64,000 nt of DNA from NCBI RefSeq assembly GCF_018320785.1, contig NC_054884.1, positions 18,601,667 to 18,665,666 on the forward strand, read 5' to 3'. A program made the position numbers and the translations under genes. The stretch comes from Cheilinus undulatus. Its lineage: Eukaryota > Chordata > Actinopteri > Labriformes > Labridae. This document shows, in pieces, positions 15,118-63,094 of the stretch (its first letter is position 1; each line of letters starts with the position of its first letter). The notes under the pieces are model-generated. The model had not been told where the DNA came from, did no database searches, and saw only the letters and a list, made by a program, of their open reading frames with translations.

Positions 15118-15420
15118 CTAGTTTTTCACTTGGGGTGAATGCATTTCTTCGTTGCAACAAGCGAGTAATATGAAATATTTCTTTGAACTAAATGTCTTAA
15201 CAGAACTCAGGTCTCCCAGTATCCATAGTTTAGGGTCTTGCTTGATACTGCAGTTAATTATCTTTAAAGTTAGTGCTTTGGTATTTTTCCAGAAAGCTTC
15301 TATCACAGGACAACTCCAAAACATGTGGAAGAGATCTCCTTGAACAATTTTACATCTTTGACACATAGGAGATATGCTGTTATTAGTTTTATGTAGTCTG
15401 TAGAGGGATAATATGTTCTG
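15118..15420 (-). mobile_element. L1-like LINE reverse-transcriptase C-terminal fragment
   Basis: An open stretch on the minus strand encodes CQRCKIVQGDLFHMFWSCP followed by FW, the Cys/His/Trp pattern at the end of L1-type ORF2 proteins. Only this tail survives and the element is dead. Confidence 0.6.
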
Positions 15421-28268: not shown

Positions 28269-29179
28269 TTTAAATCTTTAATTATAGATATGAAGGTGTT
28301 TTAGGGAGTATACAATGTAACAAAATGTATCAAGGCTATAAAATTGTACACCTAATGAATCTTATTTGTTCTTTTTTTTCAGTCAGTCATAAAGACAGAG
28401 AGGCAGGATTACACTGATTGATCGATAATAGCATGCCAGGATTTCTTCCATGCTCTCTTCATCAACAGCTTTGAACCTGCCCAGCCCACAGCCGCTACTC
28501 TCACATCGCTTCTTCCTTCAAGCAGCCAACTCCTACGGTGGGCCGTCCTAGAAAGTAAAAGACATGCAGCTTATGTAAGTCTTGAGATGTTAACACATTG
28601 ATTTCTCAAAAGTTCAAACTATTTTAAAGCTCACCTGTGGCTGGCTGAAGTCACATGCACATCTCATATTTAAAAAAGCAGAGGTAAACATGCTAATAGC
28701 CTGATTGAAACTCTGGTTGGAGCAGTTCATGGGCACACATAACTCATCTAGTCTGATTAAAGATACAACACTCAGAAGACACAAACCCCATTATTAAGAT
28801 CAGCTGGACATGTTTGCTTATAGAAGTGAATAACCCATCGTAAGAACAGCAGACTAATATTGACACAGCATGCTCCTTAAAAGTGCATTTTGCATTTTCA
28901 TGCGGATGAAGATGGTTTTGAGAATGGAACGTGTGGACAGAATTGATTTTGGAAACAGAGAGAAAGCCCAAGTTCAAAAATATCCCCTTATGTGTGGATG
29001 AGGCCTGAGACAACATTTTCTACGGTAGACACTGCGTGTTCCAAAGGGCTACTGTGAGTCAGGCTCCATTAATATTTCCTACTGTCAGTGGAGGTTGTTG
29101 GCTGGATGGTAACAGTACCTTGGTGACTGGGAGGGGTATGGTCCAGAAGAGAGGTCTTTTAGAGTTACATTCATGACAT

Positions 29180-32591: not shown

Positions 32592-32813
32592 TTTATATCT
32601 AAAACCCATTTCCCACCAAAACAGCATAATGCTACTTAGAGTATCACAGTACAATAATAAATCACCTCTGTTTGCCTCTTTGTTGTAGTTCGTGTCTTTA
32701 ATTTGCAGTTAAGCCAAACCTACAAGTATGACAATGAGAACAGGAACAGTGCAAGACAGTAAATTAGTGCAATATACATGATTCTTCACAGTAAATTTTG
32801 TTTGTCAACTGTC

Positions 32814-32984
32814 TTACAAATTCAGGTTATAAGAAAGGGCACAGAAACATGCCAGCAGCAGAAATAGTAGGACAGGAACAGGGGCACCGGCTGTAGATTT
32901 GGTGGTAAAGACTGTCCTGTTATGAAGATCCTGTGCAGGCCGAAACACGTTCTTATATCCTGCATGAGTCGGGAACATCTTCAT
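32814..32984 (-). CDS. Tandem CA gene: last exon with GPI signal
   Basis: After ccccaccag, this 171-nt exon encodes [19 protein letters not shown], a Thr/Ser stretch, then [15 protein letters not shown] and a short end before TAA. The pattern is that of a GPI-attachment signal. It joins in phase 0 to the exon ending at 34751. Confidence 0.85.
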   Translation of the reverse strand: MKMFPTHAGYKNVFRPAQDLHNRTVFTTKSTAGAPVPVLLFLLLACFCALSYNLNL

Positions 32985-35900
32985 CTGGTGGGGTTAGAGA
33001 AAATGTTAGATTGCATGTTTTGGATTTACTAAAGTTAAAAAGATATTTGGAACTAATGTACATTGATTTTAGAGGTATTTATTTGAAGTTATGTCCCTGC
33101 AAAAAGTCCAGTGACTAATGGGGTGAAGTCAGGCAGGCACCAGTCTTATTGCACAGGGAGTTGCAATTAAGTTCTATTTTCCATAAACGTTAGGGTTGGA
33201 CCAAGCATTTTAACTTAATTCTGCAAGCCAACAGGGGTAAGAACTCTATTACAAATAAAGAATAATTCTCGTCATAGCTTTAATCACAGATTAACATTCT
33301 CCAACTCTTTATAATGAGTAATTATGTTAAAAAGTACTGGGTGTGAGTTCTTGTGTAAAAGGGTGTACACAAGAACTCACACATCACATAAAAACTTTCC
33401 ATCTCAATGCCAGTGAACAACACTACAGGTTCTTCCCCTTTCACTCCTGTTTTGCTTTCTTTCTCCCACTCTCTTTTCTTCTTCGTTCTTTTCCTTCTTT
33501 CCTTTCGTTTCTTCCTCTTATCTTAATTGATAATTATAACCTCTTTTGGCACATGCCTTGTCTTTGTTTTTGTTGTCTGCATTTATTTAAAACTAATCTA
33601 GTTATCATCTCAGCACAGAGTAACTGGTAAGTCTTAATTAATCTGCCTTTAATTAGTCTTTAAAAGCAGAATTGTGGGAGCAGGACCAAAGCTCAATCAG
33701 GTTTTCCTGCGTTTCAATATATCCCTACTAGACCATCTCCTCCACTTGTTTTCAGATTCCGCAGCCTGCTTCCCACCCCTTATTCTCTATTTTCTTTCTT
33801 TCCAGAGGACCCAAAGGGAGTTTGTCTTGCCCGTGTCACATTGACACTAGTTTTTTTAAGCCAAATTATATCTAAGGCCCCTTAAGAGTTCTCTGTTTCC
33901 TTTGAAGGACCCATATATGACCTTAAATGACACACCAGTCTTGAATTTAAACTTAATCTCCATTTCATTTGAAAAATTCCTCAAACAAAGATATACAAAC
34001 ATGTTCACATAACTGAAATGCCAAAAAAATGAGGAGTGCCAGTAATACAACAACATGTTTTGATTGATTTGACGTGGAAGAGATAATGTGACATGACGGA
34101 AGAAAAAGTTCCCTAGTGAGGACGTAACCACCACATATCAGATTGCTCTTACAGATGCAACCCCAACTGTTGGCTGCCTTACACTAACGACTTTTTGTGC
34201 AATTTCAAAGTTGCAGACAAAGTTACAAAACTGGAGTAAAGTCGGTGGATTCTTGCTAAAATTGCAACGTTCCCCCTGTTGTCTCAGTTCTTAGGTGTAA
34301 GGTGGTTGTAAGACTGAATCCAAGTAGTTTTAAGGCAGTCCTTCTTCAATCTTGGATTTCTACTCAATGTAAATTATTTAAAAACATTGGATTATAAAAA
34401 ATATTAACTTCTTCTTCTATATCTTGTTCTTTGCCCAAAAATTCTTGTTGTGAATTTCCACCAGATGCATGATGGGAAATAAAAATCTCAGAAGGAATCA
34501 TATTCAAGTCCTGCTGTTGGTGACCTACAGTCCTTGCAAAATCTTAGTCCGGGACAATGAACTCAGCGACTTGCCGACAGATTGTCTTTAAATATGAGAG
34601 GGTCTTAGATGTTTGTCTTTTTAGAGTCTTTAATGTAAGGCCAGCCTTACATGTCCCAATTCATGACTTTATTCCTGTTATAAGTACAAAGCAAAAAATG
34701 CTTTCTATGTGATGTAAAATCAACACAAAGAAAAGATATGAAGCACATACCAGGTCTTTATCCACTTTGATAGACTCTTTAAAAACAGTCCAGACCACGG
34801 CTTCATTACAACTTGGGGTGGTCAGGGAGCCGTTGTAGCGATAGTATGCAGCTCGATCCACGTCACCAAGCAGATCGTCAATAGAGATCTCTTCTGTGAC
34901 AGTGGCTTTGGAGCCTAAAAGAAGCAAAAACAGAAAATTAAGTGCCAACATTCAGTGTTGTTCTTAATTTTACAAAAGTTACCATGTGCACCCACTGATG
35001 TTTTGTATGAGTGGAAGGTAGCTGGTCAGTTTCTTCCAGGCGTTCATATCAGATGTTGGCTTTGACGTGGAACTTGTCTGCAGAGATAAACAATGGAGAA
35101 GATTTAAAAGATTTGACGGGAGATTAAAACAAACAACCTGTTTGGAAAATTCTTCAGCTCTTACCTCATGATGACTAGATCCACCACTGCTGCTTTTGGT
35201 AGAATCTGTGGCCTGAAAAATTGATGCTATATTTTTAATATGAACTTTTTGGTAGCAAGTTAGATTTAAACAAAAACTTGACCTATTACTTTCATGTCCC
35301 TATTTAACATAGTGGGTTGTAAATACTAACTTAAGTCAAACATTTACTTGAGGGGGACTGTAAAGAAAAGAACAAAGAAAATATGGGGACATCTCAGGTT
35401 AAGATTAAATATTTCATTGCCTATTAGCACATGATGTTCATGGTTGTTGAACCACCTGATGCCACAGGTGTTTAAAATCTCACACCCATTCCACAGTCAA
35501 CTGTAAGTGATATTATTCAAAAGTGGAAGCTTTTAGGAACAACAGCAACCCACCCATTAAGCAGAAGACTACATAAAGTCGCAGAGGGGGGCCAACGACC
35601 ACTAAGGCACATGGCGTGTAAAAGTTGCCAAGGCTCTGCTGATTCCATAGCTGAAGAGTTCAGAACTTCCATTGGCATTAATGTAAGTACAAAAACAGTG
35701 CTGCAAAAGCTTCATGGAATGGGTTTCCATGGCTGAGTAGCTTCATGCAAGCCTCACATCACCAAGTCCAATGCCAAGCATCGGATGAAGTGGTGCAAAG
35801 CACACCAACACTGCATTGTAGAGCGCTGGAAGGGTGTGCCGTGGAGTGATGAATCATTTTGATTTTATTTGGGCAAGTCTAAGTTTGTTGGATGCTGTAA

Positions 35901-41900: not shown

Positions 41901-44900
41901 CAGGGGCTGGCCTTTTCACTGCTGCTCTGCCTCAGTTAAAAAGGACATATAGTATGCTTACTGTTCTGTTTAGTTACCTCAATAAAAAATCCCAGAACCG
42001 ACAGGCCATTAGGGGTGTTCACTGCATCCTCCAAACTCAAATCCTTTCTTCTGCTTACTATGTGCATCTGGACGAGGAGGAAAAAAAATATCGATAGTGT
42101 AAACAGGTTAAGTGTAAGTTAGAAAAATGCTTTTACTGCTAAATCAGGGCTGAAAGGCTTATAACCATGGTACTACCTCCATTGGGTAACTGTGTGAATC
42201 AACAGTGTGCTCTGAGCCCTCTGAGTCTTCTGACATGGAGCCCCAGTGAAAATGAAACTGAAGGGTAGTGTAGACATGTCCCAAACCCCCTCCTGAGACC
42301 GCCACCAAATCCTCCTTCAGGACACACTTTACTGGGAGTTAGAAAGGAGAAAAGTACTAGTTTTAACAGACTTATTTTTTTAAATATATCAAGATGGTGT
42401 AAACAATGTTCGTCACAATAACAGCATAAACTTTCATATGATGGCAGTATAAAACAACACTGACTCCTGTTTTGATGCTACAACAACACAAATAGAAGTT
42501 AAAGGCACCATTAGCCAATATCATTAAAGTATCAGCTCATTTTGAAATTGATAGCAGCAACACATCTCAAAAAAGTAGGGACAGGACCATGTTACCATTG
42601 TGTAGCATCCCCTCTTCTTTTAACAACAGCCTGTTCACATCTGGGAAGTGGGGAGTACAGTTGCTGGAGTTTTGGGAGAGGAATGTTGTCTCATTCTTTT
42701 CTTATGTAGGATCCTAGCTGCTCAACAGTCCTGGTTCTTCATCGCCAGTTTTTTTTGTTCAAAGGCTCATTTAGGCTCCTACGCATGCCCTCATACTGAT
42801 GTGCATCTGTTAAGTTGGAGTGGACATTTAAAAACTAATCAACTAGAGGTCACTGTCTCTCACTGAGCTACTTTGATGCTGCTCTGTAGATCCATCCCAT
42901 AGACTGAAGAAAGAACAGTCCATCTTTGCTCTGCAATGCTCTTGGAGCTGTCTGGCTTTGTGTCCAGGTGAGCCAACATCATTGACATGTTTGTATTTTC
43001 TATTAACTCACTCAATATTCGTTTATATTGCCTCAGAAAACACAATTAGGTTCTTTTAAATGTTTTCTTTGTTGCGTTTACTGCTGTGGGTTGAACCACT
43101 GGCCACACTGCCCCACAATTGGCGATGCTATTGCAGCGATTGATCTATATCCTCAAGCTTCGAGAGAACAGACAAAAAAACTGACGAAATGCCAGTACAA
43201 ACAGAAAGATCCATCCGTGTCCGTATGCTGTTCAAACATTGTGCTTAAATGAGCCTTACGTTGAGCCAAATTTTTATTTATTTATTATTATTTATTTAGC
43301 ACACATTAACAAAAATGGTGCAAGAAGGGAACGAAGCCTAATGGGCTTGTACAAATGTTGTTGTTTTTTTTAATCTGTGATAGGTCTGGACTGCAGGTCA
43401 GTTCAGCCCCTTGATTCTTCTACTGTGTTCTCTGTCAAATTTTTTACAATCTTGCATTGAGGAATTTTTTTCTGAAATTATTCCACAACTTTTAGATGCC
43501 GTTTTTGCAGATTGGTGAACCTCTGCTTCTCTAAAATGCTCCTTTTATATCCTGTCATGTTTCTGACCTGTTACCAATTAACCTTATGAGCTTAAAAAAG
43601 CTCCTCCAGCTTTTATCATTAGTACCACTTACTTTTCCAGCCTTTTTCACCCCACTTCTAATTTATGTTGCTGTCATTAAATTCAAAATGAGCAAATTTT
43701 TCATGAAATGGTAATATGTCTCTGTTTCAACATCTGATTAGTTGTTTCATTTTCTATTGTGAATAAAACATGAGGGATTTGCTGATGATTGCTTTCTCTC
43801 TCTCTTTTTTTTTTTTTTTTGCATATTTCACACATTATCCCAACTTTTTAAAACTGGGATCAAGAAGGATAAGATTCCTCTCAACACCCCACACCACAGG
43901 AAAATCTTATGTTCCAGTTATTTCATTGATAGTCTAGTTGTTTTGGTTCATGTTGCTAGTTAGAAAAAAATAGCACACTTCTTAATGCCAGGCTAATTTC
44001 TTCATGCGAGCACAAACTAGCAGGTCAAAGCCCAAGATGTTTAGATTTGTTTCATGTACAGGGAAGATTTTTTAAAAAAAAACTTAAAAACCAAGTTACT
44101 TCATATCAATAAATATGTCAAACAATTAAAGGGCAAATAAAGTGAAGTAAAGCCATCATACTTGCATGTCCCGTATTTGTGATGTACTCGACAGCACGTT
44201 TGTCTTCAAACTTTGTGTAGCCGAAGTCTGTGAGCTGCTTGTTCGTCACAGTCTTACTTGTATTTATGTTGATGGGAGACTGGCGTTCGCCACCACAGAA
44301 TGACTGAGGCAGGAGCTTCCACTTTGACGGACTGAATTCTAGAAAGGTAAATCGATGTTTTAAAGGCCAAGTTTTACTCAAATTTGACTCAAATAACCTG
44401 GAAAAATTAGCCATTCCATACCACAGTGATCATCATAGCACCAAGGATGACCTAAAAGGGAAAAACAAGTGATAAGAAATAGAACCCTCAAAGATGAAGT
44501 TGGATGGCACTCTAACACTGGTTTCTCACTCACTTGAAGGTAAAGTAGTAGCAGGGGAAGCATACACCTGACGGCCGTTAATATTTTGAGATGGCCGAAA
44601 TACATTTGAGACTCCTGTCTTCTTGGGAAACATCTCAATCTATCAATAAAAGACAGAACAGATTAGGCAAAGTGATGCTGCTGGTAGACATTCTGTAGTG
44701 GTTTATATAGCATTATCTCTTAGCATATTCTACGATAGCCTTTCCCAAACTTAAGTACACTTTAAACCTGAAATGTTCTGGTGCTCACAAAAACCCTCAT
44801 ACAACCACAGCATGAGTCAAAATATTCACCTCCATATTTCTGTTTCATAAAACAGAAGTTTAATGTGAAGACTTACTTTTCAGAAATATTGATATTACAA

Positions 44901-47900
44901 TTAGCAGTTTTGTTTGGTCAGGCATCTTTTAAGTGACCTATTCATTTTTTTATTCTTGTGATTAGTAAAAAACAGACGTGATAAAAAGGTGATATGCACA
45001 TTTAATCTTCAGGCTGTATTTGGTTAATTCTGGGGCTTAATAATAACATAATCAAGTACTTAATGATCATTTTAAAGATTATTTCAATGTGAACTATGCA
45101 GTTCCAAGGCCCACCACAGGCTATGGTGTCCTACACCTTGGGATGCACTGGTCTGTCAGGTTCAGCATAGTTAGTGAAAAAATGGACATTTAAGGGATTT
45201 CTTTCCTTAGGCAGAGTTTAAGCTTTTTACCAGCACAGAGCACTAACCGTCTAATGTGATGGGAATAATAAACCTTGAATTTTCTCAGACAGCTGTAGGC
45301 TAAAGCTGTTGTTCTCTAAAGGTGTGGTAAGGTATACCCGTGCACCACAAGGCTGATGTGCCATGGGAATTGGTACAACCATGCTACAAAAATACAAAGA
45401 CTAAAGATACTTTCACATGTTTTTCATTTTCCATGGATATAAGCATGGTGAGATTTTAGCTTGTTGTTTGGTGTGCCTTGAGCAAAACACATTTGAAAAT
45501 CCCTTGGCTAGAGACACTGAGTGAAATTATACTGCACTGAAACTGTAAGGCAGCACCTATTTCGTGACTCTCCATTGACTCTGTACAGAAGGAAGTTGTA
45601 TTTTCTCCTTCCTTTTATCAACTCATTCCTCCGGCCTCTTAAACAGTTGGTGCTGAAGCCAAGCGAGGTCTTAGTCCAGATAAGACAGTACCTGGGTCCT
45701 GGCTGTCTCGGACTGGGTGCAGGTTGGCTGTGTGGTGGCTGTGGCACGTGTCAGCTTGAGCTAGGGCTGTCGCAAACTTCATGCCGAGTTGCATGTGTGC
45801 TGTGTGTGGGCTGTCTCCCTGCTCTCCCTGTCTTTCTCTGTGAGTTTTACCTTATAAGCTCTCCCTACAAGCAGAGGGGGAACATAACTAATTACATTTA
45901 CTCCAATTACTGTAATTGAGTAGCTTATTTGTGTAGTTTTAAAATCACTATTTTATCTTTAACTTTATATACTGGGGAAAGTATTGTACTACTTTACACT
46001 CTAAAAAGCATCAATTACTGAAAAACAAATATGTAAAGCCAAAATGAGAAGGTCCAGGCTTTCTGCCAACAAGAAAATGGACAGTAGTTTGACAGTAGTA
46101 GGTGCGAATGTGAGTGTGTCTGGTTGTCTGTCTCTATATGTCAGCCCTGTGATCGACTGGCAACCAGTCCAGGGTGCCAAATGACAGCTGGGATAGTCTC
46201 CAGCCCTCCGTGACCCCCAATGGAATAAGCGGTATAGAAAATGGATGGATGGATGGTATGACAGGCCACTGTATTCTTTTTTTATTTTATTTTTATTTAA
46301 CCTTCATTTAAGCAGATGAAAAAACCCATTGAGATAGAGGTCTCTTTTACAAGGGCGACCTGGCCAAGAGGTCAGCAGCACACGTCATAATAAATACATT
46401 TCAATGACAATAAATTGGAAAGTGCATAGGTAAATTGCAGATAAAATGCTGGGAGAATAACTCACAGTAACAAATTTATAAAGACAGGCACTGTTCCGTA
46501 GTCTCATGTTGTCTGTCATTTAAGACAGAACTAAAAGCCCCAAGTGAAATGAGTTCAGACAATTTCAACTCAGACTGCAGAGTATTCCATGCAGAGGGAG
46601 CAGCAAAACAGAGTGCCCTTTTCCCTAGTTCAGTCCTCACATGAGGAACAAGCAGGTGAACAATATTGCGAGAGCGCAAGGCATAATGGCTTTCAGTTCT
46701 CTGAAGGAGAGTAGATAAATAGAAAGGAACCAAGCCGAGAAGAGCCTGATAAATCAGTCATCCAGTGAGGGTACCTGCGGGCACTCAGAGAAGGCCATCC
46801 AGATTTGGCATAGAGCTCACAGTGATGAGTGAGACGACTACACCCAGTGACAAACCTCAAAGCACAGTGGTAAACAGTATTCAAGGACTGAAGACATTTG
46901 GCTGAAGCTGTCATATACAGAACATCACCATAATCCAGCAACGGTAGAAAGGTTGCGGATACAAGATATTTTCGAGCTCTGAGGGAAAAGCAGGATTTAT
47001 TTCTGTGGTAGAAACCTACTTTCATTCTGAGTTGAGTGACCAAGTTGGCGATGTGTGCTTTGAATGAAAGCTCCTGATCGATAAGAAAACCCAGATACTT
47101 TTAGGTAGACACTAGTTCAATGGGAACAGATTCTGAACAACCAGGCTAAATTTCAGTCATGAAAAACATCTCTAATTTTATAAAATTAAGCTGCAAAATC
47201 ATGAAAAACAAGGCACAGTTCAATGACCTCAAGACATGCCCACTGACGAGAAATACGATCCTCGTCAATTTAAAGAAAAATGCTTCTGATCAGAGACTCT
47301 GTGCCACTCTAGAAAAAAAATCTGTTGATTTTCAAGAAGGAAAAAAAAAATTTGCAAAAATTCTCAAGTTTCGAAATTTGTGGTCTATGAGGAAAAAAAT
47401 TACCTGTAAAATTGTTAAGATTCTTGATTAAATATTCAAAAAAAAAAAAAAAAAAAATGGAACTACGATTTTAAGTTTGGTTTCTTGCAAAGATTTGACT
47501 TTACAAAGTCTTAAATTTTTCAATTCTAAAAACTTTGATTTTGAGTTTGTCAGAATTTAAGACTTTACAATCCTAAATTTTAAGCTTTCTTTATGTAAAT
47601 TTCCAATTTTTTGAAATCCAATATTCTGAGTTTGTTTTCTTGTAAATATCAGATCAAAGATGATTTTTTCCCAAAAAATGTTGGCCTTTTTGAAGAAAAT
47701 AAAAAAAAAAGACTATTTACTATTCAAATCTTCAAGGTTGATCCTAATCCGCCGTTGTACATTAAGTTTCTTATGATTTAAAGAATATATATACATTCAC
47801 CTAATTTTAACATCAGATCAGACAGGGTCCCCCAGGAGATCTCTGGTGTCCCCCCAGGGGTGCCTTTCCCTTAGGTTGGGAACCACAGCATTAAAAGGAT

Positions 47901-50900
47901 GCTTGCAAAAGTGTTAAAAACAAAAGTAACAAAGGCAGAAAAGAAGCGTGCAAGCTCAGTTGACCTTTTGAACAGGATGAAAAACAACTTCTTTTATCTC
48001 CTCTGAAATTTAAGCTTTGGCTCATGTAGGAGAGTCAAGCAGTCACAGACGTAAACTCCCTCAGCCAACAAGCAAGAAAAATAATGTAGTTATTATAGTT
48101 CTATACGCTGAGGTTAAAATCTGTCTTTTTTCCTTTAAAAAAATACTGCACAAGTGAGACTATTTGTCTTCCAGGAAAAACAGTGACGTCTCCTCCCTTT
48201 TAAGCCTATTAGGCTCAGCTTTGAGTACTGCTTTACTAACTTGTCTAGTCAAAGAGTTAAACCCCTGAGGAGAAGTGGAAGGATTTTCTTGAATGTCTGC
48301 AGGTGTCGCTTTCAGCTTCCTACTCTGAGCTAAATGAACCCTGAGGATCAGAAAATAGCTGGAATTGCTGCCATTTTTACACATAAATCTGAACACTGAC
48401 TGACTTTGTTATGTTCACTTGCCTTATTCTAGTTGTGAAAAATCTATTCGTGTGATTTTTTGTAACTGAAGAACTCTAAAAAAGAAATCTACAAAGATGT
48501 CTGGGACGATGCTTTGTTTTTCTGTGACTCATGGACAGACTGCAGGCAGTAGTTTAGATTGAAGTAGTTGAATGCTTTCTGAAGGAATGTTTACATCAAC
48601 CCTGCAGAAATGTAGATGTCTTATTAAAGAATAAGATATTGATTACGCCAACTAATTAAAATATGTGAAATGTTTTTTTTTGGATGGAACTTTTGCTGTT
48701 AGTTAAATGTAAATTTCTGACAATCCTACCATTTATTTAATGTCAGCCAACAACCATAAACAACCATAGAGGCTCTCTCTCTACCCTGACTTTAAACATT
48801 TTACAGGCTGTTTGTTTGAAGTTGAGGTCAAAGAGTCACACACCTGTCAACATACCTGCTGGGCCACATGCAGAGCCATGTGCATCTTATGATCTGCTGG
48901 CTGCTGATGACTGTTACAAAAGATAAGATGGAATGAAAGGCTGAATGTGTCACACTGCACCTCACGCATGACTGATGACTTCTCTCCCTGTCACATGCGA
49001 CAGCGTTTTCTCTTGTGGTTACAGTCAACAGAAAATTTAAAAAACTCAGCCTGACTTATCAAAACCAAGTTTCACAGCAGACACCAGCATGTGCAGGACC
49101 AGTATGTCCACCACTCGTCTGTTCTCTGGTGACGCTCGCCCACATTGTTGGAAGCTTGTGTAACATTTTGTGATTCCATTCACCGTAGGTCATCACAGAC
49201 ATGGCTGGTTTTCTGGTGAGGGCACAAACTAAGAATGCATGCATAGGTTTAGGTCAGATGGTAGAGAAGGCACAAATGTGCACAAACTAGAATCTTTGAT
49301 GCAGTTGGTTGTGGGATTGATTCCCAATCATGGTGCTGTTTTGTGAACGTCTTCCCCGACTCCCTCTCCTCTTACTTCCTGTTACTCTTCAGCTGTCTGA
49401 TTAAATGAAGAAAAAAGCCCGAAATATTAACCCACTATTTACTTTTAAAAGCAGTAACTTAGTAAGTATTTTTTTAGATACTTGCCCCTCACAGTTGACG
49501 AGAATCTCAGGCATGAGGGAAGTGTCGATACAAAACAGATGCGATGGAAACTTCCCCTCTTAATACCTGTGGTAGAGCTGTTGCCCTACAGCCAAACATG
49601 GAGCTTGTTTTCACCCAAACAAGTGCGCTGTCACCATGGAGAGCAGGAAGTGACTTTCACTGATTCAGACAGAATGTTCATCCAGTCACCTTCTAAAAAT
49701 TTTTGAAAACTCCTGCCATTCACAAACACTTTCTATGGTAAGTTTCCCAGATGAATGTTAATATATACAGTGCTAAACAAATTTATTAGACCACCTGCTA
49801 TATTTGTCTAAAAGACAATCCAGCATCATGAAGTGCTTTAATGCGGACTCTTTCATTTTCAGTGAGCTCTCCACGTTTTACCATTTTGAACAGGAATGAG
49901 GGATTTCAAACTGAATTCACCCAAATTTTAGCCAGCTCACTGGGCTTCTCTGAGAAGTCAGAAATCAGTCAAGCATAACATTCAACCTTCTGTTCATTCT
50001 GTTCAGGAATGCAAGTAAATAACTATAATTTGACATATTAATCAAGAAATATTAATATGCTTTACTATTTTTCAGTTTTTTGTAAATCAGTAAATTTGAA
50101 AATGCATGGATAACAATAATTATATTTTAGCAATAAAAATATCATTTGGGTTAAAGAGCTTCTACATATTGTGGCATTAACATTGCAGAAACATAAAAAT
50201 GATTTTCCTAATTACCAATGCTGTTAATTTAGGGCAGCTGTGGCATAAACCTTACTTTGGTTAGGGTTAGTGTGGTCTAATAAATTTGTTAAGCACTGTA
50301 CATGGGTCAGGTTACCAATTTCTTGCTGGTCAAGGAAAAAGGCACCGTTTGCATCTGGGCATACATGTTTATATTTGGGGCTTCATGCATTAGCCTGTGG
50401 CTAAGCTACCAGTTGTAAACAACAGAGCTTCAACTGACACAGCATGACAACAGTGAAAAACAAACATGGATGTAAAAGTAAAGCCAGTGGTCCAAGGAGC
50501 CGGGCCGTCTCCTGGCTATGTGGGCCTCAGATAACGTACAAATGTTAAATCAGACACCCACTGACGTTTACTGTGACGGAAGGAGGTGGCTCTCTGGCCA
50601 GCTCCACCTCATAGAAAGGAACCAGCAGCTTCAGCTCTGGCCCAGCATCAGCCCAGGAAATGGTTTGGTGAAGAGGTGTATGTGCCAGGAGTTACACCTC
50701 TGCACACAGGGTGCTCCAGACTCAAATATTACATGAGGCTCAGTTAACTGTCCTACAGAGACAGCTGACAGTGCACTCCTCTTCACTTTAATACCACATC
50801 CATTATTTCTCTTTATTGAGTGCCTTACCGCCTCGTCTAAGATATAATTTTATCATTTCTCTAGAAATACAGAGTTAAACCTCTTTGACCCAGTTTATGT

Positions 50901-53900
50901 CAGAACCCTGCTCAGCATGTTTAACTTGTTGATTCCAGCACGGTAACACTAAAACTTTTATAATATCAATTACAACTCAGCATCACATTTTGACACCTTA
51001 ATAATAGTGTAACAGGATCTAAGACTTATTTGCACTTGTTGCTGTTAGATGAGTCAGGCTTCAGTGTCAGTTTGATTGAAAGTATCATCATCATCAGACA
51101 TTCCAGTGTAGCTTGAGCCTTCATGGTGAAAATAATTAAACTTTGTCCTCCAGACAAGTTATCTGCTCTTTTCTAAAGCTAAAACATTTCAGTCTGATTG
51201 AGGTTATTAGTTCCTTCTAAACTGAAAAGATGTGCTAGCTAGTTTAGAGTCAGGTGTGGAAAAATGTGTATTGAGTGCAGGTCGTGCTGCTCCATGATCT
51301 ATCCTGCATGTATTTTTAACATCTGCCACTCTTTTTTTCATGCATGTGTTATGTAATTTTTTGACTGCCTGCCTACCCACCCATGCTGTTGATATGTTAT
51401 ATCTATACATAGTAATATCTAACATCTGGCCAGGGACTGCAGATGGAAACTAGCTTTATGGCTAACTGGCATATTTACTGAAATGTGGATTAATATGCAC
51501 TGTCCCTGTAAATTAATAAATAAATGAATAAATAAAAATAAGTGTGTTAATAACACACTTCATGGTCACTCATGGTGGTTATCGATCTGGAAATCCAACA
51601 TATGGTTATCACAGATTAATTATACGATGGACCATGATTTACCACATTCACAGCAGTTCTGATCAGAACTATTTCTGCCAAATGTGCATCTTTTTTGCAT
51701 TTGGAAAAATATTTAGTTTTCAAAGGTAAACATGGCCATGTAATTTTCTCTTTGCTCCATTTTCCTTCAAGAAAAAAGCACAAGGCTCATCAACTTACCA
51801 GGTCTTTGTTGACCTTGATTGGGTCTTGAAAGATCGTCCATACAACTGCTTCGCTGCAGTTGGGCGTAGTTAGAGAGCCCATGTAGCGATAGAACTTTGT
51901 GCGGTCTACATCACCAATCAGGTCATTGATGGAGATGTTGTGGGTAAAGGCAACTTCTGAGTCTGAAGAAAAAAATCAAAAACCTGAAAAGACTCAGTGA
52001 GTAGACAAAAGATCTACTTTGACAACAACACAGCCTCACCCATCTAATTCTCTAATGACTCTACACAGTATAATTTAGGATAAAGGATCATACAGACTTT
52101 TAGAAGCCTTAAAATTTTATTTCTCACGCTACTGTTACTGTTAATGTTTCAGGTGTGTGCATAGATGACAGGTCTTAACAAGGTGGCACCAAACATTTGT
52201 GCCTTATAAAATCATTGACAGTAGGTGTGACCCTTATTTTTCTGTTTTCGTTTGTGAAGTATCAGATGGCAACCCTGAGGCACTCTCAATGAACACAACC
52301 CATTTTATACCACTCTGAAAAAATACTCCAGATTTTCCTCGTCTCAATCACTGCAGCTCAGTTGTTCTCCAGAAACACAGGGAGTCAGAGTGAAACTTAA
52401 ACAGTCATCCACTGTACCTGTGTTGTTTGTCAGGTAGGATGTGAGTGAGCCCCATGGTCCTGTCATATCGCCGTCATCCGTTGCCTTTAGGGAGATAATA
52501 GGTACAAATGATTAATAAACAAATGAATCCTCCTATATTTCATGAATGTATTTTGCATCTGACCCAGTAAAAGCCAGGGTATGTTCCACGCTGTCTGTGC
52601 AGTCTGTTCTTGTAAATGCAATATCTTGTGAACACAGAAAATGTCCACACTGACTTTGTGATGAACTGGTTTGTTTTGAAGTTCAAAAGTCAGGGTTATG
52701 TGTCATGATTATAAAGTACATGTAAATGGGATCTCTCTAAAAACAGTTGAGGGATTTTTTTATTAACTTTAAGCAAATGTCCACACTGACACAAGCATGA
52801 CCTCATTACATTTTGAAAGTCAAAAGTCAAAATCATTTGGCTACTCAAGGTTACTCATGTCCGCCATCTCCTGGTGTAAAGTGGTAACAGTGCAGACCTC
52901 TGCCATTAGCCCGATCCCTCAATAGCAAAGAATCCTTAAAAATATTCCTGGATCTAGACGGTAATCCAGATCACTCCCAAAATCGAATCAATTCTTCTTT
53001 ATGCCATTTGTGACATTTCCTGAAAATTTCACCAAAATCCGTCCACAACTTTTTGAGTTATGTTGCTAACAAACAAACGAACAAACCCACCCGATCACAT
53101 AACCTCCTTGGCGGAGGTAATGACAAAATCACTCGTTAGTTTAGTTATCTCTTTAAAAGAGCTGATCAGCACTGAAGATGAAAAACATGCAGCCTACTTG
53201 TGGCATCATAAGAGCCAAATACAAATGCTTTCTAGGAAGATTTTTTTTTTCTGTCTTACTTACACTTAAGCGGACATTGATTTTGGCCCATTTTGATCTA
53301 AAATATTATAAATTATGCGGTGCAACCGTGCCTTTCTGTAGCACTTTATAGCCTTTAAACTTATTTCAAATTCAGTCAGGAATGCTTTTATCATACATTT
53401 GATCATTTAATTGCAAAATGGATTTACACTTATACTTCGTAGAGATGGCTCTGCTTAAAAGATGCTTCCTGGGTAAATCAAGCAGGATGCCTTGACTTTC
53501 CAAGGAGCACATGGCTAGAAACCCCCATATGGATGGATACATTAATAAAGCGTACTGACTACAATAAAAATTTGTTCAAATGCAGGCTTTATGCTATAAA
53601 GACGGGGGCTGGGGTGGAGGAGGTTTGCAAGCAGCAGCAGTGTGGTGGATCAGCATTAATGCAAGCAGGGATTAGTGAGATGTAAGTCATATTTAAATAC
53701 AATGCTGTGTTGAGAGAAGGAGCTGTGATTGGGAGCAATAGGTGAGAATTAGGATCGGTTGGCTGTCAGCTGATGACGGCTGGGCATATGACTACCGTGT
53801 CCTGCATGAACTAACACTGAGCATCATTCAATCAAAGGCTGGAAATTATGAGATGCTTCTGTAATATTATACTTTTTAGTTTTGGACGTACATCAATGAA

Positions 53901-56900
53901 AAATGCGAGGACAGCGATACCCTCTGGATTCTTCGCTGGCTCCGACAAATCCTTCTTTAGATTGACTACGTGCATCTGTAAGAGATACATACAGGTAGGA
54001 GACAAGTCAAGATAACAAAAGGAGCACACTTCATAAAGAAAAGTAGCACATTGCACAAGAGTCAACAATGCTTTACCTCCATTGGATATCTGTGCTTATC
54101 AATGGTGTGCTCTGAGCCTGGATGATGTTCTGTCTTGCCCCAGTGGAAGTGAAACTGAAGCGTAGAGTATGTTCCATTAAGTCCCCCTCCACTCACTTCC
54201 ACTTCATTCTCCTTCAAAGTCAATTTCACTTTTTGCATAAAAAAGAAAGTGTGAAAGTGGTGCCACTTGCATACCTCTGTCACAACTAGAGAAACAACCT
54301 CTTGGAACATGTAGGAAGAGGAAGATGAAAAATAGAGAGGACTGTACCTGTGTGGTTATTGTTTTTGAGTGATTTGATGACATTCTGTGAGGAGAAGTTG
54401 GTGAAGGTGAAGTTATGCAGGTTTTTGTCAGTTTTAACATGGCTAGGGTTTATATCAATGGGAGACTGCCTATTTCCTCCACAGACAGATCCAGGGATGT
54501 CTTTCCAGTGAGTCGGGGTGTGCTCTGTGAAAGGAAGAGATGCACTTAATACAGAAAACTAATACTGACGGATGGTGGTTTACTTCCAGTCAACTTTACG
54601 TCTTTACTCACCACAGCCAGTGTAGCACCAATCACTCCCAGCAGCTGAAAGAAAAACAGTCAATTCAAATAAATAAATGTCAGATGTGACTTTATAAAAT
54701 ATTCCCCTATAAGGGAAAAACTGACTGCTACTTTTTGTTAATCTGCTGATTCTGTGCGGTTACTTAATCTCATCAGGAAAAGGCATCATTGTCTTTATTT
54801 AGACTTCAGGGTGATCCCTCATTTACAATGACATCAGCAGATAAAAACAACAAATGTAAGATAAATGAACATAAGACATAAAGTTATCAGTTAAAAACAG
54901 ACATGACACAATCTGAGCATTTGCTTATCAAGTGGTAACTAATGCTAGGTGTGGACGCACCTCAATGCAAAATGAAGACGCATCTTATGTTGTCACTGGA
55001 GCTGTAATGCTAATGCATGGTATGCTAACGCATGGTATGAATGTACACATTGAGTGCAGTCAGCCTGAAGTCTGAATGCCCAAAACTCATTTATGGTCAA
55101 TAAATGTAAATTAGGACCTGAGTGAGCTTGACTAAAACTACATGTTATATAATGTCAGACACTTAGCTGGAATGAAGCTAGTATTGTCAGGTATTTTTGA
55201 CTAATGTTAGCTATAGCGGCTAGCTAGTTAGCAAGCATTCCAAACTGTTTTCATATACAGCTTAAGATTTGTTTCAGGCTTTTGTTATTTTAATTTTGAT
55301 CTGTAAATGTATTTTTAGATTAGCATACACTATATGGACAAAAGTATTTGGCCGCCTGCCCATTACACCAACAGGGACTGAAATAACATTGTATTCACAT
55401 AAATGTACTTTAATATGGAGTCGTCCCCCCTTATCCAGCTATAACAGCCTCCACTCTTCTTAGAAGTTTCCCTTATGATTTTCGGGTGTTTCTGTGGGAA
55501 TTTAAAATCATCTAACCGTGTCTCAATAGTCCTTGTTTTGTGCACTGGGGCACAATCATGTTGGAATAGAAAAGGGCCTTCCCTAAACTGTTGCCACAAG
55601 GTTGGAAGAATAGGATTGGCCAAAATGTCTCACTGGGGATAAGGGGACTAGCCCAATCCCTGAAAAAGAGCCCCATACTATTATCCCTCCTCCACCAAAC
55701 TTTACAGTTGGTACAATTGCACTCGGGTGGGTAATTGTTTCCCAGTATCCGCCACGTCCAGACTCGCCCATCTGACTGCCAAACGGAGTAGCCTGATGCC
55801 TCACTCCACTGCCAGTGTGCCATACACAGCTCCACCTGACCCTCTGCATTGGACTTGGTGATGAGGCTTGCATGCAGCTGCCATGGAAACCCATTCATGA
55901 AGCTCCTGCTGCACAGTTTATGTGCTCACATTAATGCCAGTGGATGTTCAGAAATCTTTAGCTATGGTATCAGCAGAGCGTTGGCAACTTTTACGCATCA
56001 TGCGTCTTAGCAGTCATTGACCCTGCTTTTACGTGGTCTTCCACTTCGTGGCTGAATTGCTGTTGTTCCTAAATGTTTCCAATTTCTTGTATCACTTATA
56101 ATTGACTGGGATATCCACCACGGATGACATTTCACAACCCATCTTATTGCAAAGTTGGCAGTCACTGAGCTCTTCAGAAAGACATATTTAAAAATGTTTG
56201 CAAATGTAGACTGCATAGCTAGGTGCTTGATTTTATACACCTGTGGTACTAGGTCTGATTGAAACACCTGAATTCAATTGCCAAATATTCTTATCATATT
56301 GTGTATTTCTGGTTGATGCTATAGTTAATTTAAGAGGAAATGTTTCTATCGTTCCCTTTATGGTAGGGGAAATACATTGTCCTGCTCGAATTAAAAGTGA
56401 TAAGAGTTCAAAACAGTCATGCTTCGATACAACTTTACTGACTTAAAGTAAAACCACCTCAATAATGGCTGCATTTCTGATGTTTTAAAAGGCTTTAGAG
56501 GGGACTTTGATAGAGCTGGTGATTCAACAGCAGTCAAAACAAACTCCAAAAATAAGGCAACCTGGCAAGCCAGATCCCCACCACTCCCTTTACAATATTT
56601 ACTTTACTATCATTGTAGTAAGTGGTGGTTGTGACAATAATAGTATTTGTAACAGTAACACTGCTTTGAATTTGTGTACTTACATTTTGATTATTATTTA
56701 TTCATTTCTTTATTATTCTTCATAATTTTTTCCCCTTTCCTCTTGTATGCTTGCATTAATTTACTGTCTGATCCCTGTTTTTTCTCTGATGGAGCACTTA
56801 TTCACGCATACATCAATGTCATTATCCTCTACCGTGACAAGCTGTTTGTTTAGTTATCTGTCATTTTGTCTCTCTCTTGTTGTTGTCTCTCTGTTAGTTT

Positions 56901-59900
56901 TTGTGTTTTTCATTTCAATAAAAGTTGTCATTAAAGGCTTTTATTTGAGCAGCTGCTGTCTGAGGAGAATAAATGGGAGCTCTCTATGACAATTAAAAAA
57001 CACAGACAGTGTACTATAATAACATGTCTACAGCAAACAAAACTATCCATTTATTTTGCCCACACTTACTTTTCAGATGTAAATACGCTACAAAGTATTT
57101 TTTAAGTATTTTTCTCAACATGAAATAGAATTTTATTTCTCTAGGTTACCTTTAATAGCAAACAAAGCCATTGGTAGGAAGATTTAAATTTCTTCTTAGT
57201 TTTAATGCACGTAATACTGGCTCCAGCTCAACATCCCACATGTGGTTTACAGAGGGATGACCAAAGGTCTCACTGTCACTTGTAAGAAGCTGATAGGTTA
57301 GCTTTTATCAGTGGACAAAAAAAACGGCAATTCCCTGAGGCTTTGCGCTCCAGCTGATCACAAGATATAATCATCACAGGTGTGCATCATTTATGAGGTA
57401 TACAGTAGATCTGAGACATGTTGTTGAATGTAAGTAAGGGACCAAGAGTGAATAAAATAACATCACAGGTTTTAATAGCCCTAAAATGTCTTTAAATCAA
57501 GCAAATTCTAATTAGAAAAAATATCTGCACATATTAAAATCGTGAATTGGTGGATTGACTCTTATCAGAGCATCAAAATAATAATTATATTTATTTGTAG
57601 TAACATATAGCCTCTTTAATAATGTAAACCCCTTTTCTCAAACAGAATTACCTTTTTATTGGTGATGTTAGCCATGTGGATGGAAACACTGAACTAAACA
57701 ATGCAATGTCAGACTACATAGTTTGGCCATGGGTTAAAGTGTTAAAAAATTAGCAAAAAAAAAGGGGGGAATCAAACAGCTAAATGGATGTAAAGTGGCA
57801 ACAATGGGCAAAATGGTAAGAAAGGGTAGAGGGGCAAAAAAAAGGTATACATGAGCGAAAAATGGCCCAAAAAAATTGGTTAAAAATTGGAAAGAAAGGG
57901 GGAAAAGTGCAAAAATGGATGAAAAGGGGCAATAATAAGCAAATAGTGGCATTAATAAGTGGCAAAAAAGTTGCAAAGTGGGTTAAAAGTGGCAAGAAAG
58001 TGCAAAAATGGGTTAGAAGTGGAAGACAGAAGTGGCAAAAAATGGGCAAAAGTAGCATACGTTTGATAGTGACAAAAAGAGATAGAAACAGCAATAAAAA
58101 AGGGGGTAAAAATGGGCAAAATATGCTTAGAGTGGCCAAAAAGTGGCAAAAGACTTGATTGGAAAAAAGTTGGTTAAAAGTGGAAAGTAGGGGCGCAGGT
58201 GGCAGAATGGATAAGGCGCGCGCCCCATGTACACGGGCAGCCCGGGCTCGAATCCGGCCCGAGGCCTGCCACCGCACCCCCACCCCCAACCCCATCCACC
58301 ACCCCCCCCCACCAAAGAAAGGCACAAAAATGCCCAAAAATAACCCTTTAAAAAAAAAAAGTGGAAAGTAAGAGAAGAAATTGGCAAAAAGAGAAAATTA
58401 AAGCAAAAAGTGCCTAGCACCAGTGCTACTGTTTTCTTCAGTTATTTATGTGTCAAAGCTGGCTGGAGAACATTTTGGTGGGAATGGTGGCCATCTTTAA
58501 ATTACACTGATAGGGTGCGTTCGAAAAGTCCAAAAAATTACCTCCTAAGTCCTTTCCTATTCACTCTTCCTTAACCCCGATGAGAAACGTCACAGGGTTA
58601 AGGAAAGGTGTGAGTTAGAGGATAGGAAAGGACAACTGTGGTGAGTAAGGAATCCGACTGCACTTTCTCTAGGCGGATGTTACGGACGTGAAGTGTGTTT
58701 TTGCCTAATTGTGATAATAAATATAATATTCACAATATAGCAACATGCCGACTTTATCGCTTTAGTTGGTTGTGATTTACAAACTTAAAACGTTTACTTT
58801 AATATTTCAAAATAGCAAGACAAATACAGTTTAAAATACTGGCTGATCGGTTTACTATTTCAATAAAATAGAAATGAGAAGAAATGAAATTGTGATCATA
58901 AGTTCAATGACAAAGTTTTTATGTCTAATATTTCTCTGTTCATCCCTACTGCCTTCCATTTATCACGTGTATTATACGTTTGACTGAATTTTACGGTTTA
59001 AATCGGGGTTAGTAAAGTTATTCTAGTTATTCAAGTTATTCACTTGTTCTGATGAGCGGTCAACAGGTGCGTCACTTTAAATGAAGTTTACGCAAAGCAT
59101 TGTGGGTCGTCTTTTCATCTCTCCTTTGGTAAAGGATGGTCCAGTGTTTCCTAGGCTAAAGGAGATAATAAAGGAAAAGATGAAGCTCCTTTCCTTAACA
59201 TTTGGAGAATTCGAACAGTCCTTATCATGGCCGACACTTAAACACTTCCGGGTCGTTTCACTCAGTTAGGAACCTTCCTAAGCAAAATGGACTTTTCGAA
59301 CGCACCCATAGTTTGTGTGCTTTTGTGACAGGATAGACAAAGTATCCATGAATGAGTCTGACAAGTATAAGTTAAGCAAATCAAGCATAATGGTGCAGGG
59401 AACCCAAAATGTAATGTCCACATATGAGGACGCACAGTTGGAGGTTAAGTTACACCTGACCTAGAGAAGTGTTAAAAGATTTAGACAGGTTGAGATTGAG
59501 TTTTGATGCTCTTCTAAGAGGTGATGGGCGAGCACTGCTGGGTATTTTTAATTTTTACATTTCAGATCTGGATATGTTCTGTAGTTCTCTGGTTTTGTCA
59601 CCAGAAGAAAAAGATATTGGTTTCACTTGTTTGCTTTAGGCTTAATTGGAAATGGCCTCATGTGAAACATTCCCTGGGGCATCAAAACCAATAAAACCAT
59701 CCCTCCCAAGAACAACAGCAATGTAATGGTTTTCTCTCAAACTTAAAACCCCCTTTCATAATTTAGTAATAGTCCCAGGACCAAAAAGGCTGAATTAGCT
59801 ACTATTTTAATTTAAAGAGTTTGGAGAAGATGAGCAACTTTTTTGAATGTTCTTTCTGCTTATCACAGGAACTTTTTAATGGAAAAGCCTCCAGACTGGA

Positions 59901-60218
59901 ATATACTGAATTGCAATAAAAGTTGCACCATATCAGGCTAAGTCAGTCACAAAATGCTGCAGTACAGAGTAGGATTTAAATTTCCTTTTTTTGCATAACC
60001 CAAACATGAAGTTGGAAACATCTTAAGCCACTGTACCATTCTTTTGTATCAGTTTCATGAAAAATGCTTTAGATTTATCAAAGACAAGACAAGTGTCCGT
60101 AGGAAAGAAGAGCTCCGCTGAATGAGGATTTCTATTTATTTTGTTTTTATTTAATTTACTTACCATAATTGACCACAGTTCCCAAAGCCAGGCACGTCAG
60201 GAAAGAGGAAAGATGCAT
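32814..60218 (-). CDS. Tandem (double-domain) GPI-anchored carbonic anhydrase
   Basis: Sixteen coding exons join in one frame (1755 nt, 584 residues): 60218-60164, 54644-54612, 54524-54348, 54228-54077, 53975-53892, 52484-52418, 51962-51799, 44639-44534, 44451-44422, 44338-44162, 42331-42177, 42067-41978, 35212-35165, 35077-34996, 34914-34751 and 32984-32814. All borders are GT-AG. Residues 1-18 form the signal peptide, about 24-265 CA domain 1, about 281-550 CA domain 2, and the rest the GPI tail. Both domains keep the zinc His (H115/H117/H141 and H375/H377/H402), the His64 proton shuttle (H87 and H347), Thr199 (T221 and T505) and the four CA IV cysteines. Both should therefore be catalytic outside the cell. 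Alternatively these could be two genes, but no separate signal-peptide exon for domain 2 or GPI exon for domain 1 was found. RNA evidence would settle it. Confidence 0.83.
34751..44451 (-). CDS. Tandem CA gene: second carbonic anhydrase domain
   Basis: Exons 44451-44422, 44338-44162, 42331-42177, 42067-41978, 35212-35165, 35077-34996 and 34914-34751 encode it. Landmarks are [26 protein letters not shown] (His64 position), [37 protein letters not shown] and AVVWTVF. Unlike domain 1 it has an extra short exon pair (35212-35165 and 35077-34996) coding a Ser/Thr-rich insert. Confidence 0.93.
35455..36446 (+). mobile_element. Tc1-like remnant in tandem CA intron
   Basis: The plus strand encodes decayed transposase ([16 protein letters not shown] near 36165-36215, then LEAVI near 36340). 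It ends TTTTGTCCATATAGTGTA. The left terminal repeat is not recognisable. Confidence 0.75.
37543..37793 (-). repeat. Dispersed repeat ending CTTGGCGGAGGTAAT
   Basis: About 250 bp, matching 39660-39920 (opposite orientation) and 52891-53121. Shared blocks are GCGCAGACCTCC, CCTGAAAATTTCATCAAAAT and CTTTTTGAGTTATGTTGC. Confidence 0.75.
39099..40419. mobile_element. hAT-like element with 8-bp target duplication and nested repeat
   Basis: The element is bounded by TTTTAAAG at 39091-39098 and again at 40420-40427, the 8-bp duplication typical of hAT insertions. The ends CAGCAGTATTCAAAC and GGGTTGAGTATCACTG are imperfect inverted repeats. A copy of the CTTGGCGGAGG repeat sits inside at 39660-39920. 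No intact transposase. Confidence 0.7.
39660..39920 (+). repeat. Dispersed repeat nested in the hAT-like element
   Basis: It starts CCACCAAGGAGGTTATGTGA and ends GGAGGTCTGCGCTCTC, the reverse orientation of the copy at 37543-37793. Being nested, it inserted later than its host. Confidence 0.75.
40710..41705 (-). mobile_element. Tc1-like remnant in tandem CA intron
   Basis: It starts CACTACATAGACAAAAGTAT and ends TACTTTTGTCCATGAAGTAT, inverted repeats 996 bp apart. A transposase piece on the minus strand ([20 protein letters not shown]) lies at 40745-40939, but the remaining frame is broken. Confidence 0.75.
42510..43865 (-). mobile_element. Rearranged Tc1/mariner-class remnant
   Basis: It shares blocks with 9037-10350: AGCAGCAACACATCTCAAAA, TTCATGAAATGGTAA and, reversed, the GAGCAGCTAGAATCCTACAT region. 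It has been rearranged or partly deleted. It lies between coding exons of the tandem CA gene. Confidence 0.5.
44534..44639 (-). CDS. Tandem CA gene: linker exon, a converted C-terminal exon
   Basis: The exon opens [19 protein letters not shown], homologous to [19 protein letters not shown] in the last exon (32984-32814). Instead of running into a GPI signal it reaches CCTTCAA|gtgagt, a strong donor. An 82-bp intron and the acceptor ttttag lead to domain 2, with the split codon AGT giving Ser. If the donor is not used, translation stops two codons later (SSE then TGA), which would leave a one-domain protein without an anchor. Confidence 0.8.
45879..46015. mobile_element. hAT-type MITE fragment
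   Basis: The start resembles CAGAGGGGGAACATAACTAA followed by TTACATTTACTCC, a typical fish MITE end. Only one end is clear. Confidence 0.5.
46130..46258 (+). mobile_element. L2-like LINE 3' tail
   Basis: The text GATCGACTGGCAACCAGTCC, then CAGCTGGGATAGTCTCCAGC and a (GGAT)n end, is the hallmark 3' tail of fish L2-type elements. Confidence 0.75.
46270..47130 (-). mobile_element. L2-like LINE reverse-transcriptase end
   Basis: Minus-strand frames encode [25 protein letters not shown] and [20 protein letters not shown], conserved pieces of the C-terminal part of fish L2/Rex-type ORF2. They sit in different frames, so the copy is broken. It is 5'-truncated in the usual LINE way. Confidence 0.75.
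47140..49250. other. Intron sequence with no recognised feature
   Basis: Part of the 7.2-kb intron between domain 1 and the linker exon. It is A/T-rich with homopolymer runs near 47438. I see no exon with proper phase that could give domain 2 its own signal peptide. Confidence 0.5.
49255..49430 (+). mobile_element. tRNA-derived SINE
   Basis: An A-box-like TCAGATGGTAGAGAAGG and a B-box GGGATTGATTCCC are followed by CTTCCCCGACTCCCTCTCCT and an A-rich end. The body resembles 29955-30122 on the other strand. Confidence 0.6.
49768..50298. mobile_element. Tc1/mariner MITE with near-perfect ends and TA duplication
   Basis: CAGTGCTAAACAAATTTATT at the left is mirrored by AATAAATTTGTTAAGCACTG at the right, continuing as AGACCAC / GTGGTCT. 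TA flanks both sides. It is 531 bp with no transposase. Confidence 0.85.
51799..54644 (-). CDS. Tandem CA gene: first carbonic anhydrase domain
   Basis: Exons 54644-54612, 54524-54348, 54228-54077, 53975-53892, 52484-52418 and 51962-51799 encode it. Landmarks are [17 protein letters not shown] (His64 position), [24 protein letters not shown] (His119), [18 protein letters not shown] and AVVWTIF. Exon phases match those of domain 2 and of the single-domain gene. Confidence 0.93.
52891..53121 (-). repeat. Dispersed repeat ending CTTGGCGGAGGTAAT
   Basis: Third copy of the family at 37543-37793 and 39660-39920, in the intron after exon 53975-53892. Confidence 0.75.
55328..56304 (-). mobile_element. 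Tc1-like remnant in tandem CA intron 2
   Basis: It starts CACTATATGGACAAAAGTAT. Minus-strand transposase pieces ([30 protein letters not shown]) lie in several frames. The right end is eroded (CAAATATTCTTATCATATTG). Confidence 0.75.
57735..58180 (+). repeat. 'gtggcaaaa' repeat cluster
   Basis: Same family as 23035-23430, continuing after a SINE insert at 58360-58405. It lies in the first long intron of the tandem CA gene. Confidence 0.75.
58190..58359 (+). mobile_element. tRNA-derived SINE with 11-bp target duplication
   Basis: The A-box TGGCAGAATGG is at 58200-58210 and the B-box GGCTCGAATCC at 58245-58255, followed by a C-rich body and an A tail. AGTGGAAAGTA flanks it at 58179-58189 and 58360-58370, so it retroposed into the 'gtggcaaaa' repeat. 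Confidence 0.85.
58513..59307. mobile_element. Non-autonomous DNA transposon with perfect 20-bp ends
   Basis: GGGTGCGTTCGAAAAGTCCA at the left is an exact reverse complement of the right end TGGACTTTTCGAACGCACCC. ATA flanks both sides, suggesting a 3-bp duplication. It is 795 bp with no recognisable transposase. Confidence 0.88.
60164..60218 (-). CDS. Tandem CA gene: start codon and signal-peptide exon
   Basis: ATG at 60218-60216 follows ctccccttaaag, a splice acceptor, exactly as in the neighbouring CA gene. It encodes [18 protein letters not shown], a short hydrophobic signal, and ends in phase 1 before gtaagt. The next exon adds WCYTGC, the first disulfide of CA IV enzymes. Confidence 0.8.
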
Positions 60219-62760: not shown

Positions 62761-63094
62761 TCCCTCATGTAAAACTGCCCACATCCTTACACACTTTATA
62801 CTGCCGATCATCTCTTGTCAGCATTCTTGCACCCTTTGCACATCCTGGCAGCAATCATACTATCAATGCACACAGACTTGTTGCACTGGAAAAAATACTG
62901 GAAATTATTTGTACTTGTTTAAATCTCAATTTTTAATACTTTTACTTTGTTTTATTTTTCATGTTTAATGTTTAATTCCTGTACATTGAAAGAAAAGCTA
63001 ACCAGAGTCAAATTTCTCGTTGCATAAGCATACTTGGCTATAAAAGTTGACTCTGACATTAAAAAAAAAAGGTAGATAAACATGTTAAAAGCGT

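Follow-up and report, generated by a model that had tools for sequence, protein, structure and literature searches.

To our knowledge, the vertebrate CA IV/XV carbonic anhydrases (CAs) are single-domain enzymes, and the solved CA IV chains matched in this study are about 260 residues long. The protein encoded by the wrasse Cheilinus undulatus locus described here has in common with them a signal-like start, both cysteine pairs, His64, the zinc ligands and a hydrophobic tail, but where they have one domain it has two domains on one tail. The enumeration of known two-domain CAs given by Koh et al. 2018 (PMC5879104) has no vertebrate among its entries. The dual-domain CAs of giant clams and of Phreagena okutanii treated there resemble the wrasse protein in possessing two α-CA domains, a length of approximately 600 amino acids, and a proposed C-terminal GPI site. 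Both sites of the P. okutanii enzyme are proposed in that paper to face outward, as we propose for the wrasse enzyme, whereas the two sites of the T. squamosa enzyme are placed on opposite sides of the membrane, unlike our proposal. The likeness of the mollusc dual-domain CAs to the fish form is one of architecture and does not imply a common origin. A two-domain match from Pinctada (P0188) was also recovered but is not among the rows of our tree. The pentraxin-CA VI of non-mammalian vertebrates (PMC5723433) is likewise a secreted CA with an added domain, but the added domain is a pentraxin and not a second CA.

The closest described system is CA4C. Three CA4 genes were reported in Eupercaria (PMC7918649, Int J Mol Sci 2021), the third of which, CA4C, contains two consecutive CA domains, described as having arisen "in a rearrangement unique to Eupercaria" from "a recent duplication event". 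CA4C transcripts were reported there to be gill-specific in C. hamatus, at less than 5% of the level of CA1A and CA4A. The preliminary description of the C. undulatus locus did not count two linked CA domains as an established vertebrate architecture, a view that is not supported given the CA4C account already in print. C. undulatus is a labrid within Eupercaria by taxonomy, and its gene, like CA4C, encodes two consecutive CA domains in one frame and would correspond to the third CA4-like gene reported for that clade. Five species of PMC7918649 are found among the two-domain matches (T. bernacchii, Takifugu rubripes, Gasterosteus aculeatus, Eleginops maclovinus, and a "labrax", genus missing). 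We infer that this gene represents CA4C in C. undulatus, an identification based on shared species and architecture rather than on the published CA4C sequences themselves. The difference lies in age: CA4C is dated as recent in that paper, whereas here the duplication is placed before the split of the teleost lineages examined. The architecture is already known, and the revised age is the apparently new and useful part. No wider distribution of two-domain CA4 in print was found in the open-licence literature, among the matches listed. The evolution of CA IV/XV was treated by Tolvanen et al. 2013 (cited in PMC9032886), and the relevant passages of a study of CAIV in eel gut (PMC8215749) do not mention a two-domain form.

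The two-domain gene of C. undulatus

The window, a 64-kb stretch of NC_054884.1, contains on its minus strand a two-domain CA gene spanning 27 kb (60218-32814), which we rebuilt independently from the DNA (Table 1). Its 16 exons are separated by introns that are all GT-AG (15/15) with compatible phases, and the spliced coding sequence of 1755 nt gives one frame of 584 amino acids plus stop. The order within the product is a signal-like N-terminus, domain 1, a linker, domain 2, and a hydrophobic GPI-like tail. The coordinates of the preliminary description (32814, 60218, and the junctions 51799/44639 and 44534/44451) and its counts were reproduced exactly, and the single 584-residue frame it had read from 16 exons is identical to residues 1-584 of P0001, a 590-residue protein annotated as "carbonic anhydrase-like [Cheilinus undulatus]" that was found by protein search. 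P0001 runs past the TAA at 32814, using a donor that overlaps the stop and an exon at 32719-32698 that adds six residues. A chance open frame is excluded because of this identical database protein and the conserved two-domain relatives described below. The claim of one gene with two CA domains holds on the frame, the Pfam profile and P0001; of the single signal peptide and single GPI tail also claimed, what stands is a signal-like and a GPI-like sequence, by hydropathy only.

Table 1. Features of the two-domain CA gene and its single-domain neighbour in the C. undulatus window
Feature	Coordinates	Strand	Content
Exon 1	60164..60218	-	Start codon and signal-like sequence; ends in phase 1; identical in P0001
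Exon 2	54612..54644	-	Domain 1 begins
Exon 3	54348..54524	-	Domain 1; His87 (His64 equivalent)
Exon 4	54077..54228	-	Domain 1; zinc ligands His115 and His117; Glu128
Exon 5	53892..53975	-	Domain 1; zinc ligand His141
Exon 6	52418..52484	-	Domain 1
Exon 7	51799..51962	-	Domain 1; SLTTPNC (Thr221, Cys225)
Exon 8, linker	44534..44639	-	Relative of the last exon; phase-1 donor cuts before any hydrophobic tail
Intron after linker, 82 nt	44452..44533	-	If retained, frame stops at once at ...LPSSE, then stop
Exon 9	44422..44451	-	Domain 2 begins (HPWCYDDHC); model without a preceding signal exon
Exon 10	44162..44338	-	Domain 2; His347 (His64 equivalent)
Exon 11	42177..42331	-	Domain 2; zinc ligands His375 and His377; Glu389
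Exon 12	41978..42067	-	Domain 2; zinc ligand His402
Exon 13	35165..35212	-	Ser/His-rich stretch, mostly missing from domain 1; low confidence in structure model
Exon 14	34996..35077	-	Domain 2
Exon 15	34751..34914	-	Domain 2; SLTTPSC (Thr505, Cys509)
Exon 16	32814..32984	-	End of domain 2 and hydrophobic GPI-like tail; stop overlaps donor used by database model
Exon 17, database model only	32698..32719	-	FGLTAN, then stop
Single-domain CA4/CA15-like gene	19890..21803 (low end approximate)	-	Own signal-like start; distinct from the two-domain gene in the tree

The two halves of the 584-residue protein are homologous, with 50% identity over 278 aligned columns (E 1e-95). The Pfam Carb_anhydrase profile (PF00194) matches P0001 in two stretches (465.7 bits, cut-off 27); it lies above the cut-off in both halves, and each domain contains the three zinc histidines and the Thr199 gate. 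Aligned residues bear out the earlier claim that both domains keep their active-site residues: the zinc ligands are His115/117/141 in domain 1 and His375/377/402 in domain 2, the His64 equivalents are His87 and His347, and the Thr199 equivalents are Thr221 and Thr505. Each half also has both cysteine pairs. We take the CA II numbering of these residues and the pairing of the cysteines as given.

An AlphaFold2 model built on 54 sequences has a mean pLDDT of 83.4 and a pTM of 0.51, with pLDDT below 50 at residues 435-452. The model supports two well-folded domains whose placement relative to each other is uncertain at this pTM. The 50 Foldseek matches listed of 487 were all CA chains aligned over 260-299 columns, and therefore one domain was matched at a time; among these, the top fold matches were CA XII and CA XIV, followed by CA IV. 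By sequence, the best PDB match of both domains is human CA IV, with mouse CA IV next for domain 2.

The single-domain neighbour lies approximately 11 kb downstream of the two-domain gene, on the same strand. It was the one further CA gene detected when the window was searched by tblastn with parts of six relatives and with two of these at full length; the other matches listed (62841-62903, 28283-28567, and 18414-18340) were weak, with E values of 0.13 or more, and were taken as chance. Near the low end of the window, matrixin and hemopexin matches on the plus strand (3384-3596 and 10513-10869) mark a matrix metalloproteinase gene. Fragments named by eye from their translations as Tc1-like transposase-like and LINE-like are found at 35476-35736, 46693-47100, and 15121-15420; at 46693-47100 Pfam found nothing, and at 15121-15420 no more than a zf-RVT match below threshold. 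NCBIfam has no family for the two-domain protein, and Rfam gave nothing at gathering score within the window.

Two-domain relatives and their active sites

Fish proteomes do contain proteins of around 580 residues with two CA domains. From 247 proteins fetched, those in which two near-complete domains follow each other form a core set of 113, counted as proteins rather than species and including some isoforms. Each protein search was taken to its best 120 matches, and the absence of a species from that list carries no meaning. Among the best 120 listed, two CA profile matches were found in 107 proteins, three in 10, and four in 3. The extra matches are in part one domain split in two and in part a third domain, the latter being probably a joined neighbour in P0002 and P0003. 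In these three-domain models, from two other wrasses (Halichoeres and Xyrichtys), an internal signal-like sequence matching the gene start at 21803 precedes the third domain, and the models appear to be the two-domain gene merged with its single-domain neighbour. The Synaphobranchus model P0121, with a transposase-like N-terminal part (PF13843, precomputed) ahead of its two CA domains, is probably another false join.

Two-domain models are present in the elopomorphs Albula, Aldrovandia, Anguilla, Conger, Megalops, and Synaphobranchus, in the mormyrid osteoglossomorph Brienomyrus, in Osmerus, Lepidogalaxias, and Gadus, and in many percomorphs. Outside the percomorphs, early-branching teleosts included, the two-domain form is known from gene models only. 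Nine clusters of "lgn" source carry the whole frame of 575-588 amino acids, and their longest contigs are 1800-2747 nt, far too short for a gene like the 27-kb one; these contigs therefore look like transcripts. All nine clusters have percomorphs as their nearest named relatives. Examples are a grouper (89%, P0036), Takifugu (80%, P0048), and dragonets (78-79%, P0079), and four of the nine are nearest to gobies (61-68%). Gobies and dragonets lie outside Eupercaria.

Both active sites are conserved across this set. In 54 selected two-domain proteins, neither domain varies at the three zinc histidines, Thr199, Thr200, Glu106, or the second cysteine pair. By aligned column in the full 113, the three zinc histidines are present in 112 first domains and in every second domain, and Glu106 and Thr199 in 113/113 of each. 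His64 is retained in 107/113 first domains and 112/113 second domains, being replaced in six and one, respectively. Domain 1 of the stickleback (Gasterosteus) model P0083 is the sole zinc-ligand exception, with Arg for His96 (HFR for HFH), and it also has SLTIP for SLTTP; this domain may be inactive. For the C. undulatus protein, residue conservation leads us to infer that both domains are catalytically active. Among the 103 of the 113 proteins that are 540-625 amino acids long, hydropathy alone identifies an N-terminal hydrophobic stretch in 86 and a C-terminal one in 101, and P0001 has both. The tail is predicted to be a GPI anchor signal and the N-terminus a signal peptide.

Single-domain models are found in Oncorhynchus (P0149), Dallia (P0160), and Cyprinus (P0141), and are placed among the domain 1 (d1) sequences. 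In a Puntigrus model, a single d1-like domain is succeeded by two domains that resemble the neighbour gene. This distribution suggests that domain 2 was lost at least twice, in the cyprinid and the salmonid/esociform lines, although incomplete models could also explain it. Models from Chanos and Engraulis are incomplete; that of Engraulis continues across the linker as far as WCYAGC, after which homology ends. Among holosteans, one domain is found in the Lepisosteus models P0176 and P0179 and in the partial Atractosteus model P0218, and a partial Amia model consists of two incomplete pieces that group with each other.

The join between the domains

A 33-residue stretch of the linker exon matches 31 residues of the terminal exon upstream of its hydrophobic tail. 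The linker donor is in phase 1, as is the acceptor of exon 2 of the second copy, the same phase that follows exon 1 in domain 1. The distance from the linker RPxQ to WCY is 24 residues in 68 of the 99 proteins measured (range 20-27), the motif having been fitted in 99 of the 113 two-domain proteins and not in the other 14.

The two domains could instead belong to two separate CA4 genes in tandem whose exons were mistakenly chained into one model, with domain 2 possessing its own promoter and signal exon. False joins do occur here, since P0002 and P0003 hold the neighbour's signal-like sequence ahead of their third domain, and a scan of 44452-51798 gave two signal-exon-like stretches upstream of domain 2 (44925-44877 and 44605-44530), above the shuffle level of 0.17 per shuffle (30 crude shuffles). 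We regard both stretches as probably incidental. The joined frame is present on transcript-sized contigs in nine clusters, linker sequence and length are kept from mormyrid and eel to wrasse, none of the 103 linkers contains a hydrophobic stretch, and published transcriptome work includes the two-domain form (PMC7918649), all of which make two separate genes very unlikely.

It is equally improbable that the locus has more than one product, with a soluble domain 1 and domain 2 alone made alongside the two-domain protein. Retention of the 82-nt intron (44533-44452) would stop the frame at once, after LPSSE, and leave domain 1 without a tail. The minus-strand stretch 44605-44530, which is the linker exon in another frame, encodes a 25-residue signal-peptide-like sequence, from which domain 2 might be expressed, and runs up to a phase-1 donor that lies 4 nt away from the linker donor. 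Both extra products are putative, and the overlapping frame could be a chance product of the CT-rich codons of the conserved ASPATxLPP linker. We retain the reading of one gene with one two-domain product.

Age and proposed origin of the fusion

In a careful tree of 59 rows, one branch parts 18 d1 from 18 d2 (domain 2) sequences (support 100/99), and d2 forms a clade. A FastTree of 246 rows likewise parts 115 d1 from 115 d2 by one branch (99). With groups named after the tree was seen, the AU test rejected d1 plus d2 of five percomorphs as one clade (p 4.6e-31) and d1 plus d2 of four elopomorphs as one clade (p 0.0036); it did not reject the grouping of d1 as one clade together with four single-domain proteins and the first Puntigrus domain (p 0.32). 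The outgroup branch is long and d1 is paraphyletic as rooted. In Megalops P0124, d1 and d2 are up to 100% alike in 30-column windows around the zinc ligands, and in Albula P0112, 90%; in both, the domains are far more alike there than elsewhere, a pattern suggestive of gene conversion between the two. Where exactly the root lies is uncertain because of the long outgroup branch, the d1 paraphyly, and this middle-stretch likeness in Megalops and Albula.

In PMC7918649, a Bayesian tree that covers 14 Eupercaria species and human sequences led to the view that the two-domain form arose recently and only in Eupercaria. This is the least credible alternative, given the two-domain models in Albula, Megalops, Anguilla, Conger, Aldrovandia, Brienomyrus, Osmerus, Lepidogalaxias, and Gadus, the transcript-like contigs nearest to gobies and dragonets, and the single d2 clade with its rejected five-percomorph alternative. 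On this sequence evidence, the wider models and the tree contradict the published view, and the fusion seems to be much older than in that account, with relatives from eels to pufferfish. We consider it rather probable that the two-domain GPI-type enzyme arose once, before the sampled teleosts split, and kept both sites, with domain 2 apparently lost in the cyprinid and salmonid/esociform lines.

The fusion would have begun with a head-to-tail duplication of a CA4-type gene before the sampled teleost lineages split. The terminal exon of the first copy would then have gained or used a phase-1 splice donor just ahead of the GPI signal, and this donor would be joined to exon 2 of the second copy, also in phase 1. 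In C. undulatus, splicing would give a single mRNA whose product enters the secretory pathway as two domains on a short tether with one C-terminal GPI signal. Both domains would adopt their fold on the outer side of the membrane, with a zinc site in each, and the tail would be replaced by GPI, so that each anchor carries two catalytic sites in the same compartment. The two domains would interconvert CO2 and bicarbonate independently, probably on the gill epithelium. Taken as a whole, we hold with high confidence that this is a teleost two-domain CA4 gene that produces, from one mRNA, one secretory protein with two putative catalytic domains and one predicted GPI signal.

Fish depend on extracellular CA to excrete CO2 and to keep their acid-base balance. 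Should both domains be active, two sites would be present on every anchored molecule, which may be of benefit for CO2/HCO3- turnover, and species that retain domain 2 could be compared with those that seem to have lost it. With the revised age, what was taken for a eupercarian novelty becomes a feature of teleosts in general; this is a correction to the literature rather than a new kind of system. If the early origin is true, retention over so long a time would indicate that the two sites are not redundant.
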